Below, piece by piece: positions 19,140 to 64,000 of a DNA stretch of 64,000 nucleotides (position 1 is the first letter of the stretch; every line of letters begins with the position of its first letter). A program made the translations under genes and the position numbers. Below the pieces are notes generated by a model. The model saw nothing but the letters and a program-made list of their open reading frames with translations, did no database searches and was not told where the DNA came from. This stretch comes from Fragilariopsis cylindrus CCMP1102 (taxonomy: Eukaryota > Bacillariophyta > Bacillariophyceae > Bacillariales > Bacillariaceae). Location of the stretch: the NCBI GenBank assembly GCA_900095095.1, contig FMBT01000334.1:186001-250000 (forward strand), given 5' to 3'.

Positions 19140-21210
19140 TTACTTGCCTATGCAAAAATCTGTGAACAGTACATCCAAAACATCTTCTACGTCAACTGCA
19201 CCAGTAATCCTACCCAGTTCAGAGGCTGCCAGTCGTAATTCTTCAGCTGCCATATCAACCGCCATACTTCCCTCCCTGCTCAAAACTGAAAATCGTTCCA
19301 GTGCCATGACAGCTGCTTCAACATGTTGCCGATGTCGAGCTCTTGTGATCAAAGCGCCTTCACCTGTACTGTCAGAAGAATCACTCCCCCTTGTTCGAGC
19401 AACAACATTTTGAGTTAATGCATCAATAAACGTATCAATTCCATCCTGGGTGTAACATGAAATATCAAATGTTCCTTCTTCTCCAAATACCATATGTTGC
19501 CGATCTCTATCGTCCTCATTTGTAGTTGAATGTGTTGCATCTGAATTCTTTTCTTCCATCAAATCTAGCTTATTTCGAACTAAGAGCAATCTTTGAGGAT
19601 CAATTATACCATCATCAGTTGTATCAATGTTGTTACTATTATCATTACTGTCACCAATTATATCGCATTCCGTCAAGACAGATTGAACAATTTCTAAACC
19701 ACTCGAGGCGTTAGTAGCATCAATCATTGCCACAATTAGATCCGCTTCTTTGATTGCTTTTTGTGCTCGCTTTATACCCTCTAATTCTAATACATCTGTT
19801 GTTTCAGTCCGGACGCCTGCAGTATCTTGTAATGTACATTTAATTCCACCTAGATCCATGGATACTTGCAGTACATCCCGGGTCGTACCAGCGATCGGTG
19901 AAACAATAGCTGCATCACGACGAGCCAATAGATTAAAGAGACTCGATTTTCCAGCATTTGGTGGACCTGTATAGAATGTGTAGTAGTTCGGGGGGGGGGG
20001 GGGGGGGGGTTAGATAAAATGGGAAATATTGTACGACAAAAGCAAAGATTGTATTATTTATTTTCAAAGCACAACAGCGTCTACTTACCGACAATAGCGA
20101 CCTTCATACCTTCTCGAATAAGCTCGCCTCGTCGACCATCTTCTAATTGATCTTCCATGGATCGTTGTAAGTATAACATTTTTTTGGTAACATCTCCCCA
20201 TACCAGTTGTTGTTGTCGCTCTAAAGTCTCTTCGTCCATATCTTCCATATCGTCGTCATCATCTCCTAGTAATAGATGTTCATCGTCACCGAAATCAATT
20301 ACGGCCTCAGCGTGGGCTAATCCTGATATTAGTTGCTTTCGCCAATTTTCATACGTTTTTGAAACCTTCCCATCTAAAAGTTTAAGACCTTGTTCAACCT
20401 GAAGATGTGTTTCGGCACATAAAATATCAGCAAGTGCTTCAACTTGCACCAGATCTAATTTACCTTGTGAAAATGCTCGTTGGGTAAATTCACCGGGCTC
20501 CGCCATTCTACAGCCTAGGTGTGGTAATACCTCGTTCAGTAGTCGTTCAACAATAACTGGACTACCATGACATTGTAATTCCACCAAATCTTCACCCGTA
20601 AATGAATTGGGCCCTTTGAATGACAAAACAAGAGCGTGATCTAGAATACTGTGATCCATCGGATGATATAATTTTTTCAATGCGGCCTGACGATATTTTG
20701 GTAGGCGGGGTTTGCTTGATGGCGATGTCTTTAGTAGATTTTCCAGCACGGTGTTGGCTTGAGGACCAGAAATCCGAATCACTGCAACAGCCGTAGCCTG
20801 TTTACCCGTAAATCCAGAGGACAGTGCAAAGATAGTGTCATCGATTGCCGTCGCCATCGTTGATGGTTCTACTTTTGCGTCGTCATCGGCAGTGGACGAC
20901 GCGTCGTTCGAATCTTCTGCAATATCCGCCCGCATCGAATTTAATATAGTGGAATGAGATGACGATGAGGTGGATAGTAGATTTTTTTTGTCCTAAACAA
21001 TGATGACGATGGTGATGTTGTCGATAATGTTGTCGGTGATATCGTTGACGAACTTTTTCGTTGTTCAAGTAGGAATCTTAAATTGGTGGATGATATCCTT
21101 GCATGGGTAGTTGATAAAATTCGTCCGCGTAAGGCAATCCCTCCCCGAAGAGGAAAATGACGGCCTGAAAATCCCATAACATGAATTCGTGACGACGATT
21201 GTATATACAT
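19140..21210 (-). CDS. mnmE: tRNA modification GTPase MnmE/TrmE (GTPBP3/MSS1), organellar
   Basis: Exons 21210-20089 and 19966-19140 with a 122-base intron (GTAAGT...ATACAG) that contains a run of about 20 G. With MnmG it installs the 5-aminomethyl-type modification on wobble uridine of organellar tRNAs. Domains: a presequence rich in Arg/Ser, the folate-binding N-domain (DTIFALSSG...AVIRISG...SFTGEDLVELQCHG), helical domain, then the inserted G domain with GPPNAGKSS, TTRD, DTAGVR and NKLD, and the C-terminal FCIGK whose Cys is catalytic. The presequence (ATG at 21210 or 21177) and the enzyme body are in frames differing by one base at an A8 run near 20985; A9 would join them. Without this, translation would begin at 20935 and lack a targeting sequence. 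Confidence 0.9.
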
Positions 21211-32276: not shown

Positions 32277-32824
32277 GTATCAGGGCCTTTGGTGCCTTAA
32301 ATCCACCACTCTTTTCGACCAAATCCACTATTTCGCGCACCCCAAATCCACCATTTTTTTCCTCCAAGTAACACTAAAACTTTCATTTTGGCACAACACC
32401 CGGCCCAACAACAAGCAATACAAATCTATGTGTCGATCACCTGTTACACTGCAAACCAAACATGTATCTAAAAAATCTCAAACCCAGTGAGACATGGAAG
32501 CCGCAAGATGATGATGATTGTACGTGTTATTAACGTGACTATCTTGTAAAACTAAAGTCTAAGTACAAATTACCTTAATGAATGGTGTGGTAAAAATTAG
32601 GTAACTAGCGTAGTGCAGTGGCAAATAGTGCCAATAATAGAATGAGGTCTGTAGTTCGAGTTGGTTGTGCGTCAGGGTTGCGAAAGGTGGGTGCAGCAGG
32701 TAGTAAGAGAAAAGGGGGAAGGAGGAAGAAGAGGCGTTACTTTAAAATTCTATTATTGAAATTAGTGGATTTGGTATAAAAAAAAATGGATTAGACCCCC
32801 CCCCCCCCCCACCGTATCAGGGCC
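32277..32824 (+). repeat. Candidate SINE-like or non-autonomous element
   Basis: The 11-base direct repeat GTATCAGGGCC occurs at 32277-32287 and 32814-32824. Just inside are the inverted segments CCAAATCCACTATT (about 32321) and ATTAGTGGATTTGG (32761). The interior has an A-box-like TAGCGTAGTGCAGTGG (32606-32621) and a B-box-like GTAGTTCGAGTTG (32651-32663), spaced as in a tRNA. These suggest a tRNA-derived short element, but no second copy is in this window. Confidence 0.35.
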
Positions 32825-37996: not shown

Positions 37997-39470
37997 TGCG
38001 CCACTGACTGAAGTACAATGTATTATTATTTGATGATGTGCGTAGTACAGTATGTATACATAGTCGTATTACCTGAATATGAAATGAAGAAGTAATGAAG
38101 TGTGTAAGATTTTCATTCACATTTATTTTCAATTTACGCGCCAAAATTTTCACAAAATCCCCAATTTCGTCGTCGAGAAAAGTATTATTTTATTATATCA
38201 TTCTTTCATTCTTTAAAATTGATATATCAACAAATCGGTAGCGACAGTTCTTACAAACAAGCACTGCCACACACAAGTACCGTCACAATCATCAAGAGAT
38301 GCAGTGTTATACCGAATTGTCAATCAGCAATACGTTTGAGGAGTAGAAGAAGAAGAAAAAACGAATCAAGCAGGAACTATGGGTATAAATGATTAATGGA
38401 ACGACTATTGGGAGAAATTAAGCGTCGATATTGCTAATTGGCCTAACTTACTCCGACTGATGGTAAATTAATACTCTCAAACTGGAAGGACCAATGATCC
38501 ACGGTAGCAACGCCGGAGAGATAAGTCGATCCCGTCGTAGGAATATAATACGATTGGAGGACGCAGGATACACGAGATATAGTTCATCTGAATGTTCATT
38601 ATAGTTGCTGTGTTGATACAATCCAACCTGAGGCGACTAAAGCTCTTACCAGAAATGATAACTATTTTTATGCGCTTTTACGTAATTTAAGCCTATACGA
38701 TATAGATAATTGTATCTTAAAGACAACGATATTCAGTATCCTTCTCAGTCGTTACTAAGATAAAATTCCCTCGACTGTACAAGTAACTTGCGTTACCTCC
38801 TTTAGGAAATAACCTTTTAACGATGATGCTGCTAAGTCCTTCTTCAACTGGTCCGTGGTCTCCAAACGGTTTTAATATTAAACTTGAAGATCAGTTTGTG
38901 AAGTAAAACTGTACCGAAACAGGTTAAACTTCAGGCAGAAATTAACTACTATGATACATTAATGGACAGATTTTCTGATGATATTCCCATGTCACTATGG
39001 TCAAATATATTTTCAATTACAAGTATTTATTAAAGTACCAAGCAACAATTTTGACTTCAGTTTCAATTTTCTTGCTCATTGTTCCTTCTTCTACGAGGAC
39101 GTCGTTCGATACTTTTCTGTAGCTGTATCTATGTCGTGTTTTGTGCGCGTTATACTATACATACTACATAATACTGATCTAAATAAAGAGAAAGATGCCC
39201 AAGAATCATTGCCGAGTTTCTTCCCACGGACTATATAATCTACTTCCTAATGTCACCTACGATTTCGAATTCCTTGTCTTGTCTTTAAATCAATAGGTTT
39301 TCAAGTAAACATTTTTGGAAAAGACATCTATCTTTTAAGTTTTTCATAAACAACTTCTCCCAAGACACAATACTTGATCAATTCTTCAAATTCCACTTAA
39401 TCCGGTGCAATCGATATTTTTGTTCTCGATCAGTTGGAGGGGGGGGGGGGGGGGGCGCAAACTGATTCGT
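37997..39470. other. Intergenic region ending in a G17 run
   Basis: No gene seen in 1.5 kb. A run of 17 G lies at 39439-39455, directly after the stop of the SMG7-like gene on the other strand. Confidence 0.5.
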
Positions 39471-47720: not shown

Positions 47721-50700
47721 TTATTTTACTAGCACAGAAAAGGCACCAGTGCCATGCCGAATCGGACGTCCAGCTACGATGTTGGAACTTGGACTATTCA
47801 TCTCGTCAGAAGATCCTGTCAGAGCAGCTTGGGTTAGGAACTGAGCTGTTGTTTCAAAACTCATTTGTAGGAATGGGGAGCTCATCGTTTGCATTCCATT
47901 ACGGTTCATAGCCGTGTAATCCCCTCCAAATGTCATATAGTCAGAAATCAAACTCAAATGACGTGGATCGACATTAATACCATATACTCCAAACACAGAA
48001 CGAATTTGGTCAACAATGGTACTGCGAGCTGCCTCGACACCGTACGTGCACCGAACTGCCCAAATATCATTCGACATGAGTCGGTTATGGTCCACATTTT
48101 CTAAAAGCCACATCTCAGTAAAATTGATACCAGCAGTTTGTAGGCATCGACCACGCCCTTCCTCGTCGTTGATAAAAGCTTCATTGATATTCTTCTTAGC
48201 TCGAACTAACGTTTTCATCGCTGCTTTTTCAACAAGGCCGATCATCAACAGAGGACGGGAAGAAGGATCAACCCGAAGTGGTTGGAGTTGAATAGTATTC
48301 TGCTTGACATCAATCTTAACCGAGTCACTCAGAAACGCCATTTCAGCGGATTCGTCATCACTCATTGCGTCATCGATGATAACATTTACACCAGCACCGT
48401 CGTCGTCATTGCTGTCATCCTCGTTGACATCATCATCGCCGTAGTTTTCTGATTGAGTTCTCGAAGCCCTAACCCCGTCTTCTTCGTCCACTTTCTCATC
48501 ATTTTCGTCATCGTCGTTTTCTTCCAACAAATCATCGTCATTTCTTCCACTAGCTTCTTCTTTCTTGCCTGTATGCGTGTAGTTAGAAGAATCACCACCC
48601 TCAACAGCAATATCTCCATCATAATCAGAAGAGGAACGCCGTAGTTCTAGTTTCATTTGATAGGATAGACCCGTAACAAAAGTCTTGGCGACAACTTTGG
48701 CAATATCTTGAAGAGTTAGACCAAAAGCAGTTTTGATTCTTTCTGCTGGATGTAGCTTGAGTGTCACGATATATGCACGTTGCCAAACTCCACTGTCACC
48801 TCGCATTAGTGTCTCTGTAGTTGTCACACCTTCTTTAGCAGCAATCAACTCGTTAAGAGTCAGCTTCGTAAATCTTCGAGTCAATGACACAGCGTCGACC
48901 TCAGTGACTTCCTTGTGGAGAGGAACGGACATGGTTGGAGTTTTCAATTCTCTTGAAGCAGTCATGATGATCTCTCGTAGTCGAGGGATACCTAGAGTAA
49001 CGTTAGCACCGGATCCTGCCAAATGGAACGTATTTAAAGTCATCTGCGTGGAGGGTTCGCCGACCGACTGTGCAGCAATCGCCCCTACGGCTTCGCCGGG
49101 ATCTACTAACGCGGCTGTAAATTTGGCAGCAACCAAGGAATCAAATTCGACGTTTGAAACTTCGTTACTTTTCATGGCTTTCTTCAATTCATCATTTTCG
49201 GCCATACTCTTGGATGCCATGTCAGCAATTCGTTCCGATACACAAAGTCCACTGCTCCCTACCCTACGAGACCCTTGAGCTAACGATAAAACTGGATCGG
49301 ATGTAGCAGCTTTAAGAATCACACATATATTGCATGCCGCCTTATTCCTAGTAAACTCTACCTGCATCGGCACATTCTTAACTTTTTGTCCGTCCTTGAT
49401 ATACGTAATGTCGTAGGTGCCATTCTTCTTATCAGTTCGAATAACTGTGGCATCGAACCACCCATCGCAAATTGCGCCTCTAACCCATTCTGATCCGAAA
49501 CGTAGTTTCCTAGCAAGAACAAAGTCGCCAACTTGCATTTTCTTTTCAGGATCCCGTATCAGTTGCTCTGACCTCTTAGCATCTTTAGCAGCAACCTTGA
49601 GTGATGCATCTGGCAAAGGAGTCTGACCTTTTTTAAGCGACGCATGATTTCGAGCCATGAAAGTGAAAGATTTATCAGAACAGTCAAGGTATGATGCCTT
49701 AGTCGGATCAAGCCCATCTTCGCCATAAAGAAACTGAACAACACCACCTTCGCCATTCCTCACAGTATGATCATAGCATACCTTCAATTCCTCAAGGTGT
49801 TTGACAAGGCATCGTTGAAGATAACCAGAACGAGATGTTTTCACAGCCGTATCAACCAAACCCTCTCTACCCGCCATACAATGAAAATAGTATTCTTGGG
49901 GTCTAATACCCGTCAAAAAGCGATCCATCACAAAACCATCTGCTCTTGGATTTACATCATATGGGGCGAATGAAGGTAAGGTTCGTCCACTACTGAGTCT
50001 TGGGACACGCCGTCCTTCCAGAGCTTGCTGCCCGAGTGCACATGACACTTGTGACTGGTTGACGATTGAGCCTTTCGCCCCAGTACCACACATAATACCG
50101 AAGGTATTTTCTGGAAAGGCACAGCCAATCCATTTGGTAGACATACTTTGACAATGTCTGATGCAAGTGGATTCAGTTTTGACATCATAAAACCATCTAG
50201 AGCCGCGTGGTTAGTCGGTCCTTCGCTCCCAGAAAGTAACTGTCGAACTTTCGACGAAGCAGAAGCAGCTTCTACTGGCTTCAGTTGCCTATGGCTTATT
50301 CTCCCATCAACGTCCATTGCAACTTTACCGCCTTCCGAGTCGGCCCATGCCTTGGCTGCGCGCGAACCAGTATTGTATGCTTTCTTTATGAGATCTCGAC
50401 GAGTTCGATCGGCCTCTTTGGTCAATATAAGATCTTCCATCCTACACGAGTGGCCAGAATAGAATTGGATATAAGCGGTAAATAGTTTACCAAGAGAATT
50501 CAGCAGTAGACCAGCTTTTTCAGGTCCGTATGCTTCGAACACTGCATGCACTAGGCAGAAATCCGTCGCACCAAATGCCGACTTGTCCAGTATACCACGA
50601 AGTAATTCTCCGTCACGAATAATTACTAGATGCTCCTCTAGATTCATTCCAAATGCTGCGCCTGATGTCTTGGCTTTGCGCTCCATAGATATCCCTGGCA

Positions 50701-60681: not shown

Positions 60682-63275
60682 ATGACGATCACCAATGTCA
60701 ATGTTGCGCCAAGCAACGAGAAGAAGAAGGAGGGTCATTCCATGACCACGAAGTGTGCGTTGGCGTTCCTCGTCGTACTTGTCGCCGCTGGTGCCACTGT
60801 TGGTGGATACTTTCTTATTCAACAGCAAAAAAACAACAACACCAAGAGCAATCAAATCCAAGGTGATGGGGGGTGTCAACCTACTATCAAGGAATTACAC
60901 AAGCCTGTTTTAGAAATTACACTTGCCCCCTCAGCACAATCGAAACAATTGATGGATGAGACGGAAACTAAGGATCTTGAACAAGCCATACTCGAAGCGT
61001 ACAATCAGGCATCAAATGGTTGCTCTGATGAATACCAACGTTGGATGTATGGTGTTAACATTATTGATCAGACCTTACTTGAAAAAGCTGTTATGGACAA
61101 AGAGGTCGATTCGTCGTCTATTTCCCATAATTTCGAAGAAGAGTTTAATTTGGTACTACGATTGGAAACCACAATTTCATGTGATGGTTGTACCAACGAT
61201 GAAGCATTTGCTTCCGTGTATCCATCATCGTTTGGAAAACGAGCAACCACCAACAGACGTCAGTTGAATGAAGACCTTTTCGACGCAAGTTCTGTCTATA
61301 ACGGCGTTGTAGCGAAGTTTGGTGGAACAATTTCCCAGATGAAACTCACTACAGAATCCGATATGGACCACACCTCTTATTACGACGGAGAAGCAGCCAC
61401 AACTGGTTGGGATGACGTCCAAGATGCATCTGCTGTAAGTTTCTGAAAGATATGATTATTATTATTAATTACTGCTTCTAATTTAGAAAAATCCGGGAAA
61501 AATGATACTGCATCATTCACTCACCACACGCTGACTCTTCTAAACTTTTATCGTCTTCCTATATCTATTTCTTGTTTGTTCTCTTTTCTCAACAAATATG
61601 TATTAAGACGCCTAATTCTGGAGGTAAAGGTAGCAAAGGTGTTGGAATGGCATCAGTCAGTTTTGCTAATAGTGATTTACTTGGTAGCAAAGGAGGTAGC
61701 AAAGGAAGTAAAGCAGGTTATTATGAGGATGCAATGGCAGATGCCGGTTCTGACTCAGGTAGCAAAGGAAGTAAAGCAGGTTCAGGTTCTTATGGGGTGC
61801 AATGATAGATGCCGGCGCTAACTTTGGTAGCAAAGGGGGTAGCAAAGGAAGTAAAGTAGGTTATTATGAGGATGCAATGGCAGATGCCGGCTCTAACTAT
61901 GGTAGCAAAGGAGGTAGCAAAGGAAGTAAAGTAGGTTATTATGAGGATGCAATGACAGATGCCGGTTCTAACTTCTTCGGTAGCAAAGGGGTAGCAAAGG
62001 CAGTAAAGGCTTTGCTTCAGGTTTGGTTGAAAGTGCTGAAATGCAAGGTACTAAAGGATCAAAGTCGTATTTACTCTGCGCAACAACGCCACCCTCGATT
62101 CAACCGCAGTATCACCAACTCCAGCACCAGTTGCTGGACGAGTTCCCTACACTACCCCCGCCCCATCCAGATTTGTTTATACTCCTCAGCCAACTAAGCA
62201 GCCAACACCGTTGCCTACTCCGTTACCAACACCTAGACCTACGCCCGATCCAACACCATTGCCCACGCAAGCTCCTGTGGTACAAGCTACTCAACAGAAG
62301 AGCCGACTGAACCACCAACACCGTTACCTACACCATTACCTACACCATTGCCAACACCATTGCCAACACCATTGCCAACACCATTGCCAACACCATTGCC
62401 AACACCATTGCCAACACCATTGCCAACACCATTGCCAACACCATTGCCTACTCCTCAACCAACGAATGCACCGGTCGCAGAAACACAGACAGAACAACCG
62501 ACTGAACCACCAACTCCACTGCCCACTTCAGTCCCAACTCTCCACTACTCCAGTCCCAACGGATCAACCCACGCCGTCGCCTACTCCCCCGCCTACTCCA
62601 GGACCATCTAGATTTATTTATACTCCTCAGCCGACACCGTTACCTACACCGTTACCTACACCGTTACCTTCGCCAAGACCAACACCTGATCCCACACCAT
62701 TACCTACACCTCAACCAACGAATGCTCCATCAATGCCTCCCTTTGAGGAAGCACAGACGATTCCTCCATCTACTGCCCCAACACCTACCCCATGCCCTGA
62801 TAATCCCTGCGAAATGCATTTCATGAGTGAATCTGCTGTAATTGAAGAAAGTTGTGATCCACTGGTCGGCAAAATCATTGAAATTGATAGTTGGTGTGGA
62901 CAGAGATGGGATGAATATTGCGTCGTTGCATACAATGACTGTTTTTCGTTTGATACGGGATGTGACGAAGATAGTGTCACCGCGATTGCAGAAGCAGCTA
63001 ATGTTGATAGAACTAAAATTGAATGTCCAGCAGATGAAACCGAAGTCTTTACAAATCCTCCTATCCTCATACCTGCAACACCATCACCAGGCGGTACGAC
63101 AGCTGAAGCCATCTGTCCTAGCCAATTCCCGGGTACCGGTACAGAGTGTAGCAACACAAATTTGCAATGTGTCTACTACCTATACACTGACCCGTCAGGA
63201 GAAGGAGGAGGAGAACAATGGCTGTGCAACTGTGGAGATGAACCTCAAGAGTTTTTCTGCAAACAAAATGAATAA
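60682..63275 (+). CDS. Silaffin/pleuralin-like secreted repeat protein: KGSK repeats, PTPLP tract and Cys-rich C-terminus
   Basis: Exon 1 60682-61434 and exon 2 61608-63275 (GCT/GTAAGT...TTAAG, phase 0). ATG at 60682. A membrane anchor or uncleaved signal is at residues 24-46 ([19 protein letters not shown]). Next is a unique domain of about 200 residues with Cys pairs. Exon 2 starts with repeats of [10 protein letters not shown](A/V)GYYEDAM-x-DAGS (lysines spaced as KxxK, as in silaffins), then TP/PTPLP repeats in two blocks with SRF(V/I)YTPQPT at each start, then two Cys-rich domains ([27 protein letters not shown]...CNCGDE). The frame changes about five times, at roughly 61795, 61985, 62060, 62297 and 62550, mostly like one missing base and all in repeat DNA. 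The deep conservation of sense on both sides argues for a live gene. A role in silica cell walls is inference from composition. Confidence 0.75.
61614..61995 (+). repeat. Coding tandem repeat of GGTAGCAAAGG units (KGSK)
   Basis: Nested repeats: short GGTAGCAAAGG units that encode GSKG, inside a larger unit of roughly 81-90 bases encoding the [10 protein letters not shown]...YYEDAM-x-DAG block. About four larger units, the last three nearly identical at the DNA level, suggesting recent expansion or homogenisation. Confidence 0.8.
62326..62460 (+). repeat. Coding 12-base tandem repeat (PTPL)
   Basis: About ten perfect or near-perfect head-to-tail copies of CCAACACCATTG, encoding the PTPL tetrapeptide. 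The lack of silent changes between copies shows recent amplification. Confidence 0.85.
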
Positions 63276-64000
63276 ATAGATCTTTCATTTCTCCACCAGA
63301 TTTTAGTATACGATCACTAGTGGCTGAGCTCAGTCCTGGTTAGATAAAATAATAATAATAATGAACAATACAAGTAGTAGTAACATATAAATAATATATA
63401 GTAAGTAGATGGATCAAGTTTTCTAGAAGAAATTCTGCTACATTGTACTTTTAATCTTGATAGACAAGGCAGCCAATTTTAGTGTATTGTGTGTGTGTGA
63501 TGCTTTGCTTGAGATTTATATCTTGATAACTACCATTTTCTAGTGAAAGATTGCTAATCATTATGAAGTAACAAACACACCTACAGACATTATGGATTTT
63601 AGTTCAACACAGTTCAACATAGTAACCGTGCAATGGATGATGGCAGAGGATACACCAATCAGCAAAACATTATCAATGTGTGCGAGTCTATCTTGAGAAA
63701 AACTACTACCATGTATTATTATGAAATCTGCAACAAAAGTGAAGTGATGAAGTAATTGATGGAGAATAGGACATTTGTTGCTTTTGTTGCTACAATATAT
63801 TGCTATTTGAGAAAGAGAGACAAAATCTAAGGAAATGGAAGGAAGAAAGCAAGACAATTGAAGAGGGGGGATATAGTAGTAATGTTAGTTAAAGAAATCA
63901 ATGACAACCGGGGGGGGGGGGGGGGGGTGATGGGATGGTGGGCTTCTCCAAAATTGAAACAAGAAAAAGGGCCAGAAGGGAAGTAGTGAAAGGTGGAAAT
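63276..64000. other. 3' flank of the repeat-protein gene, with a G18 run
   Basis: No gene seen. A run of 18 G lies at 63910-63927. The window ends here. Confidence 0.5.

Follow-up and report, generated by a model that had tools for sequence, protein, structure and literature searches.

Does a single living gene occupy positions 60682-63275 of the window (the whole 64,000-nucleotide stretch of DNA analysed here), and would its product belong to the silica wall of a diatom? The host is indeed a diatom, as indicated by its silicon transporters: in searches of its own genome (67.9 Mb in 818 contigs) PF03842 was matched 27 times when exons were counted separately, with a best score of 757 bits, whereas only one of 14 control genomes responded, and that below the cut-off. 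Some of these matches occur in pairs of contigs (C581/C268 and C331/C90) whose scores and layout are nearly the same, which would fit an assembly that retains both haplotypes. An earlier note on the locus had assembled a membrane anchor, an N-terminal domain said to be unique, lysine-bearing repeats, proline-rich tracts and two Cys-rich end domains into one candidate biosilica protein, and every one of these modules is present at the place and in the order given there.

Layout and reading frame of the locus

The features referred to below, all on the forward strand, are as follows.

60682-63275, +, whole gene, from ATG at 60682 to TAA at 63273-63275
60682-61434, +, exon 1, 251 open codons ending at a GTAAGT donor (61435): short tail, hydrophobic anchor or signal, N-domain
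60754-60819, +, hydrophobic segment (Kyte-Doolittle), residues 25-46, a signal anchor or cleaved signal peptide
60964-61386, +, N-domain, probably diverged from the LE-A-YN / C-GC domain also present in locus L038, from alignments of mixed strength
61258-61266, +, R-Q-L tripeptide (RXL-type, within NRRQL), residues 193-195, from the sequence
61435-61607, +, predicted phase-0 intron of 173 nt with pyrimidine-rich 3' end, from donor and acceptor sequences
61608-62067, +, K[GS][GS]K / GYYEDAM / DAGSN repeat zone, in frames 0, 2 and, as read by eye and by the low-penalty path, 1
62121-62780, +, Pro-Thr (PTPLP) tracts, in frames 0, 2, 0
62152-62266, +, PT unit copy 1, 77% identical to copy 2
62593-62707, +, PT unit copy 2, from comparison with copy 1
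62793-63041, +, Cys domain A, core DSxCGxxWDxxCxVxYNDC, related to loci L005 and L004
63105-63263, +, Cys domain B, CPxxxPxxGxxC..., with weak relatives L017 and L018
63273-63275, +, stop codon TAA, from the sequence

The borders of the segment separating the two exons, with a GTAAGT donor at 61435, an AG acceptor at 61606-61607 and exon 2 in phase from 61608, suggest a phase-0 intron at 61435-61607. Were it retained, a stop would be met three codons past the donor, giving an exon-1 protein of 254 residues that ends at 61446. That stop invites another explanation, in which exon 1 is by itself such a 254-residue protein and the repeats belong to a neighbouring gene or were joined to it by misassembly, and in keeping with this the genome searches gave no other link of the N-domain to Cys domain A or B. 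On the other hand, the consensus donor, pyrimidine-rich acceptor and matching phase speak for splicing, and in another gene of this genome (L038, below) a single frame runs through what is probably the same domain, a KxxK tract and PT repeats. In addition, no hydrophobic segment was found in the exon-2 pieces, where the best 19-residue Kyte-Doolittle mean is 0.61, so that exon 1 would be needed for their secretion. We therefore regard a division into two genes as very improbable.

In exon 2 the order runs from 75-nt units through PT tracts and Cys domains A and B to the TAA, and here the view of the locus as one gene fails in so far as it implies a readable frame, the 173-nt intron being followed by four or five frame changes. 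A codon-usage path begun at 61608 and traced over a range of shift penalties placed five changes near 61788, 62012, 62095, 62295 and 62540 (frames 0, 2, 1, 0, 2, 0) at penalties of 2-5, and four at 61788, 62087, 62295 and 62540 (frames 0, 2, 0, 2, 0) at penalties of 6-15; judged by eye from the repeat motifs, the second change lies near 61988 and the third near 62070. Further introns were discarded as a cause, since the breaks fall inside continuous repeat units without spare sequence.

At the other end of the gene, residues 25-46 reach a best 19-residue Kyte-Doolittle mean of 2.23, compared with 0.76 at most beyond residue 60. A hydrophobic segment near the N terminus is thus confirmed, but its assignment as a membrane anchor is not compelling, since a cleaved signal peptide would fit as well if translation began at Met21, the hydrophobic stretch containing an A-G-A site (both judged by eye).

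The N-domain and its relatives in the same genome

Exon 1 encodes five Cys residues, four of them in the domain that follows the hydrophobic segment. A search of the genome with exon 1 returned only itself (three candidates scored), no PDB sequence matched it up to E 1, and structure prediction for the domain was uninformative (mean pLDDT 33.8, with one sequence in the alignment). Among viral contigs, two stretches matched the N-domain and one was called a relative, corresponding to no distinct locus. A different entry was provided by a working consensus of a diatom domain. Used as a genome query, it found two strong places each on contigs C293 and C457 (E 8.7e-9 and 2.5e-7) and three weak matches besides, the last of them exon 1 of the window at E 0.47 (all seven candidates scored).

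The loci on these contigs, L038 and L039, contain open frames of 940 and 944 residues, which begin with what by eye resembles a signal peptide and include the domain twice, together with a KxxK tract (KDDKSSKKDSKSSK...GKGSTEGKGS) followed by long PT/PSISD repeats; the tract seems to be set inside the first domain copy, after its C-x-GC half. The first of these frames, which gave a match to Pfam LED_rpt below its cut-off, is

L038:1967-4786, +, open frame of 940 residues with KxxK tract and PT/PSISD repeats

Alignment of the window N-domain with the first L038 copy brings together LE-x-A, YN, C, Y-x-R, C-x-GC and F-x-K, covering three of the four Cys residues, with a local score of 47 that was reached in 5 of 2000 shuffles. 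The score against the second copy was reached in 110 of 2000, and the two L038 copies score 74 against each other (0 of 2000). A profile of both copies gave the window domain 10.3 bits, a value attained in none of 5000 shuffles, the best of which reached 10.1; the working consensus gave 16.9 bits, with 8.0 for the best shuffle. The hhalign probability for the L038 profile was only 2.5%, at E 0.018. The window and the fetched loci supplied 390 ORFs 80 or more residues long (a set in which some loci were excluded or overlap, and L015 is the same stretch as the window). When these were ranked, the window came first under the L038 profile (E 0.019) and again under the working consensus (E 2e-4), and was the third distinct ORF with L038 copy 1 alone (E 0.69). 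Genome searches with each L038 domain copy did not retrieve the window. From these alignments, we consider that the N-domain probably belongs to the L038 domain family, and the description of it as unique is accordingly not borne out: a probable relative lies in an intact 940-residue ORF of the same genome. The two genes would thereby share a succession of N-domain, KxxK tract and PT repeats, and differ in that L038 and L039 have a signal-peptide-like start, two domain copies and no Cys domain A or B that we could see.

Cys domains, repeats and known diatom proteins

The Cys-rich nature of the two end domains is clear, with 14 Cys in the last frame-0 piece; each domain occurs once in the gene, and their Cys spacing differs. 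Relatives of domain A were found on C451 (L005, E 5.4e-7) and C23 (L004, E 5.0e-7), which are 98% identical in DNA and have in common with the window the core DSxCGxxWDxxCxVxYNDC. The contig of L004 ends soon after this domain, so the remaining layout is visible in L005 only: a signal-peptide-like start (by eye), domain A, a GSPTGSP and PTPxP linker, GGKGGKGSKG and, once past a frame break, SWGGYYDMDG repeats with a hydrophobic tail behind them. Judged by these sequences, L005 is the same module kit as the window gene in another order, alike in Cys domain A, PT linker and KxxK with Tyr/acidic repeats, and unlike it in its leading Cys domain, signal-peptide-like start, hydrophobic C-terminal tail and Trp-containing repeats. 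For domain B there were weak relatives only, on C265 (E 0.003) and C367 (E 0.06). Loci L017 and L018 are Cys-rich and apparently secreted, with domain-B-like modules (CGTTAPENGSVC..., CPSLYPQSGNDC..., CPVDIPLAGDEC...).

Patterns of domain A matched 47 times in a collection of genome contigs and 28 times in viral contigs, with none confirmed in either, and structure prediction for this domain was uninformative (mean pLDDT 55.9, three sequences). The C-terminal part matched no PDB sequence up to E 1, and no Pfam family exceeded its cut-off with any piece of the window gene; MHC2-interact (E 0.022), YbaB (E 0.029) and ABC_export (E 0.033), all below their cut-offs, were taken as chance.

The 75-nt unit, which encodes the GSKGSK repeats with Tyr and acidic residues, has a Tandem Repeats Finder score of 346, and the PTPLP tract, with a 12-nt unit in 11.2 copies, scores 233. 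Five K[GS][GS]K motifs lie in the two surest pieces and seven when the third is counted, numbers reached in none of 10000 residue shuffles of either set (at most 4). Their gaps within pieces are 21, 17, 21 and 15 residues, all outside the range of 1-6. Nor do L005, L020 or L021 have KxxK pairs with a gap of 1-6, their motifs overlapping or standing at least 20 residues apart, and L038 has two such pairs. Pentalysine clusters (five spaced Lys in 12-14 residues) are found in no scanned segment of the gene's pieces and in 3-21 such segments of L005, L020, L021 and L038. The repeat pieces contain 7 Tyr in 146 residues, with YY in the full units, and no Trp.

These values bear on the likeness to silaffins and pleuralins proposed in the earlier note, which we compared with the available text of the papers cited here. 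The new screen of PMC5501833 selected proteins that begin with a signal peptide and whose KXXK motifs are separated by 1-6 residues; the paper lists PT repeats in 14 SFLP/KXXK proteins of T. pseudonana, TPSIL1 included, and suggests hydroxylation of these repeats. Such proteins resemble the window gene in KXXK with G/S between the lysines, in PT repeats and in an RXL tripeptide, and differ in that the window gene has perhaps an anchor, two Cys domains, motifs 15-21 residues apart and no pentalysine cluster, which serves silaffins as a targeting element according to PMC9650480. On account of this spacing and the missing cluster, we do not class the gene with the silaffins or SFLPs, although its product may still function like a silaffin, a kind of protein defined also by lysines carrying polyamines and by silica precipitation. 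Cingulins, in which KXXK alternates with Trp and/or Tyr-rich regions (PMC4557024), are alike in their alternation of Lys repeats with Tyr-containing stretches, from which the window repeats depart by their few Tyr and absent Trp. In the same genome, L020/L025 (C80/C249) and L021/L022 (C26/C563), on paired contigs with frame differences, contain SWGGYY and GGKGGKGSKGG repeats; L020 and L021 have signal-peptide-like starts (by eye) followed by RKL or RDL, dense KxxK, 15.9% Tyr and 2.3 and 2.8% Trp, respectively, and are much more cingulin-like than the window gene.

The KxxK repeats with Tyr and acidic residues uphold part of the proposed likeness, and the pleuralin side rests only on "proline-rich plus Cys": pleuralins also set a proline-rich part beside Cys-containing domains, but consist of multiple repeats of a 90-residue PSCD domain (PMC4557024), as opposed to two different single Cys domains here. 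No protein with exactly this module order was found described in the open-licence literature, which is a weak indication of novelty, and proteins that pair KxxK motifs and PT repeats had been described before (PMC5501833). Together with the N-domain probably shared with L038 and the domain A shared with L005, this makes the novelty weaker than first stated, and the layouts of L038 and L005 argue that the gene newly combines parts of a kit used elsewhere in the genome.

Possible role of the protein

We incline, with some reserve, to the reading that the locus is a genuine diatom gene whose product is a modular protein of the extracellular frustule matrix. Our best guess places the protein in the wall or the silica matrix, a role that is likely given the diatom host, the KxxK/Tyr/acidic repeats recalling cingulins and silaffins, and the recurrence of these kinds of module in L005, L020/L021 and L038/L039, where they follow what by eye looks like a signal peptide. 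The hydrophobic N-terminal segment would direct entry into the ER and either remain as a type II anchor or be removed as a signal peptide. In the lumen, the N-domain and both Cys domains would form disulfides as they fold and could act as docking or cross-linking ends. The GSKGSK/YYED repeats would be a charged, disordered tract whose lysines, possibly modified, may bind silica, polyamines or other matrix proteins; the PT tracts would form stiff spacers, perhaps hydroxylated. Expression, secretion, contact with silica, cleavage and lysine modification are all conjectured in this scheme.

A location at the SDV membrane is possible, as is cleavage at the RQL after the N-domain, which would free the KxxK-PT-Cys part into the SDV lumen or wall. 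Release at an RXL motif is proposed by analogy with Sin1 and the SAPs, whose lumenal part is reported or proposed to remain in silica after cleavage (PMC5525289, PMC5647440). An RXL occurs by chance in 3170 of 10000 shuffles, and the single RQL here is weak evidence of a processing site. A single membrane segment and an RXL motif are likewise features of Silicanin-1 and the SAPs in the available text of these papers; there, however, the segment lies towards the C terminus, where the last piece of the window gene has a best mean of 0.61, the SAPs have a conserved cytoplasmic domain unlike the window gene, and the term KXXK is absent from the available text of the Sin1 paper. A more specific version, in which a type II membrane-tethered, silaffin-like precursor keeps its N-domain at the SDV membrane with a cytosolic tail, is cleaved at RQL and locks its chain by the Cys ends, appears rather improbable; if true, it would represent a membrane-to-silica route unlike that of Sin1 and the SAPs.

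The absent pentalysine cluster and wide KxxK spacing are also compatible with a cell-surface or secreted adhesive or linker, a glycoprotein rich in PT and ending in Cys domains that would have no contact with silica and whose Lys/Tyr/acidic repeats would serve adhesion or coacervation. The hydrophobic tail of L005 could then be a surface anchor, and Y/K-rich modular proteins of Amphora with proline-rich modules were first chosen as adhesion candidates, according to the available text of PMC4220933. One of those candidates, AC3362, nevertheless proved to be a wall component (PMC4220933), and other KxxK genes of the present genome look cingulin-like, with RXL tripeptides and dense KxxK. An adhesive seems unlikely to us, if far from negligible.

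The comparisons suggest that one diatom genome draws repeatedly on a small kit, comprising the LE-YN/C-GC domain, KxxK-Tyr-acidic repeats, PT spacers and the CGxxWD Cys domain, and varies both the order of the parts and the way they are attached to membranes. Such reuse would allow one to ask if a protein's place in the wall is set by the end domains or by the repeats.

Frame breaks and the integrity of the gene

There remains the matter of whether the frame changes of exon 2 reflect a decaying pseudogene, with real indels and a protein no longer made, or errors of assembly in a living gene. Four or five changes in 952 nt would fit decay, and the genome search with exon 1 (three candidates scored) gave no second copy of the locus as a check. 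Yet an open frame is kept across exon 1 (753 nt) and over the final 712 nt, and with random placement the chance of all breaks falling in the 952-nt zone is about 0.009 for five and 0.024 for four, the zone having been chosen post hoc.

The two PT copies provide a separate line of evidence. Their 26 differing sites fall 4/3/19 on the three codon positions (one-sided binomial p = 4e-5 for third-position excess over one third), with 16 synonymous and 5 nonsynonymous codon changes, a bias that argues for a real protein. The GSK units lack this pattern (synonymous/nonsynonymous changes of 2/3, 0/4 and 2/2 in three comparisons), nonsynonymous changes outnumbering synonymous ones overall, so that selection is supported for the PT tract only.

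Breaks that may be errors of the kind supposed are found elsewhere in this genome. The window also contains the largest subunit of RNA polymerase I, identified by PDB rpa1 matches (E 9.9e-74 and 1.8e-145), and its frame switches at rpa1 residues 932-933, near 50120 (50115-50125, - strand). The matching codons of both frames overlap in the DNA, no residues are missing and no intron fits. This one-base (or two-base) break at a conserved site of a housekeeping gene is probably an assembly error.

Best alignments of contig pairs with similar repeat genes, which look like haplotigs or recent duplicates, show 13 gap openings and 7 mismatches in 2613 columns (L020/L025), 44 and 116 in 3234 columns at 92% identity (L021/L022), and 7 and 22 in 1818 columns (L004/L005), with one-base gaps frequent and some gaps longer. 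The KxxK protein open in L021 is split in its partner L022, L025 has a stretch out of frame between two compensating indels, and L004 is one base short within Cys domain A at a place that is open in L005, whose own repeats contain a frame break as well.

The Pol I break and the many one-base indels between paired contigs make assembly errors in a living gene the most likely cause of the exon 2 breaks, even though four or five in 952 nt are denser than the single break of Pol I, and we find a pseudogene hardly probable. As a caution, repeat-rich silica genes can look broken in draft assemblies when they are perhaps intact.

As a separate observation, runs of poly-G or poly-C of 15-20 bases occur in the window at 19990-20009, 39439-39455, 63910-63927 and 32796-32810. 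The first sits between two ORFs that resemble a single gene, which we take from its sequence to be MnmE-like.
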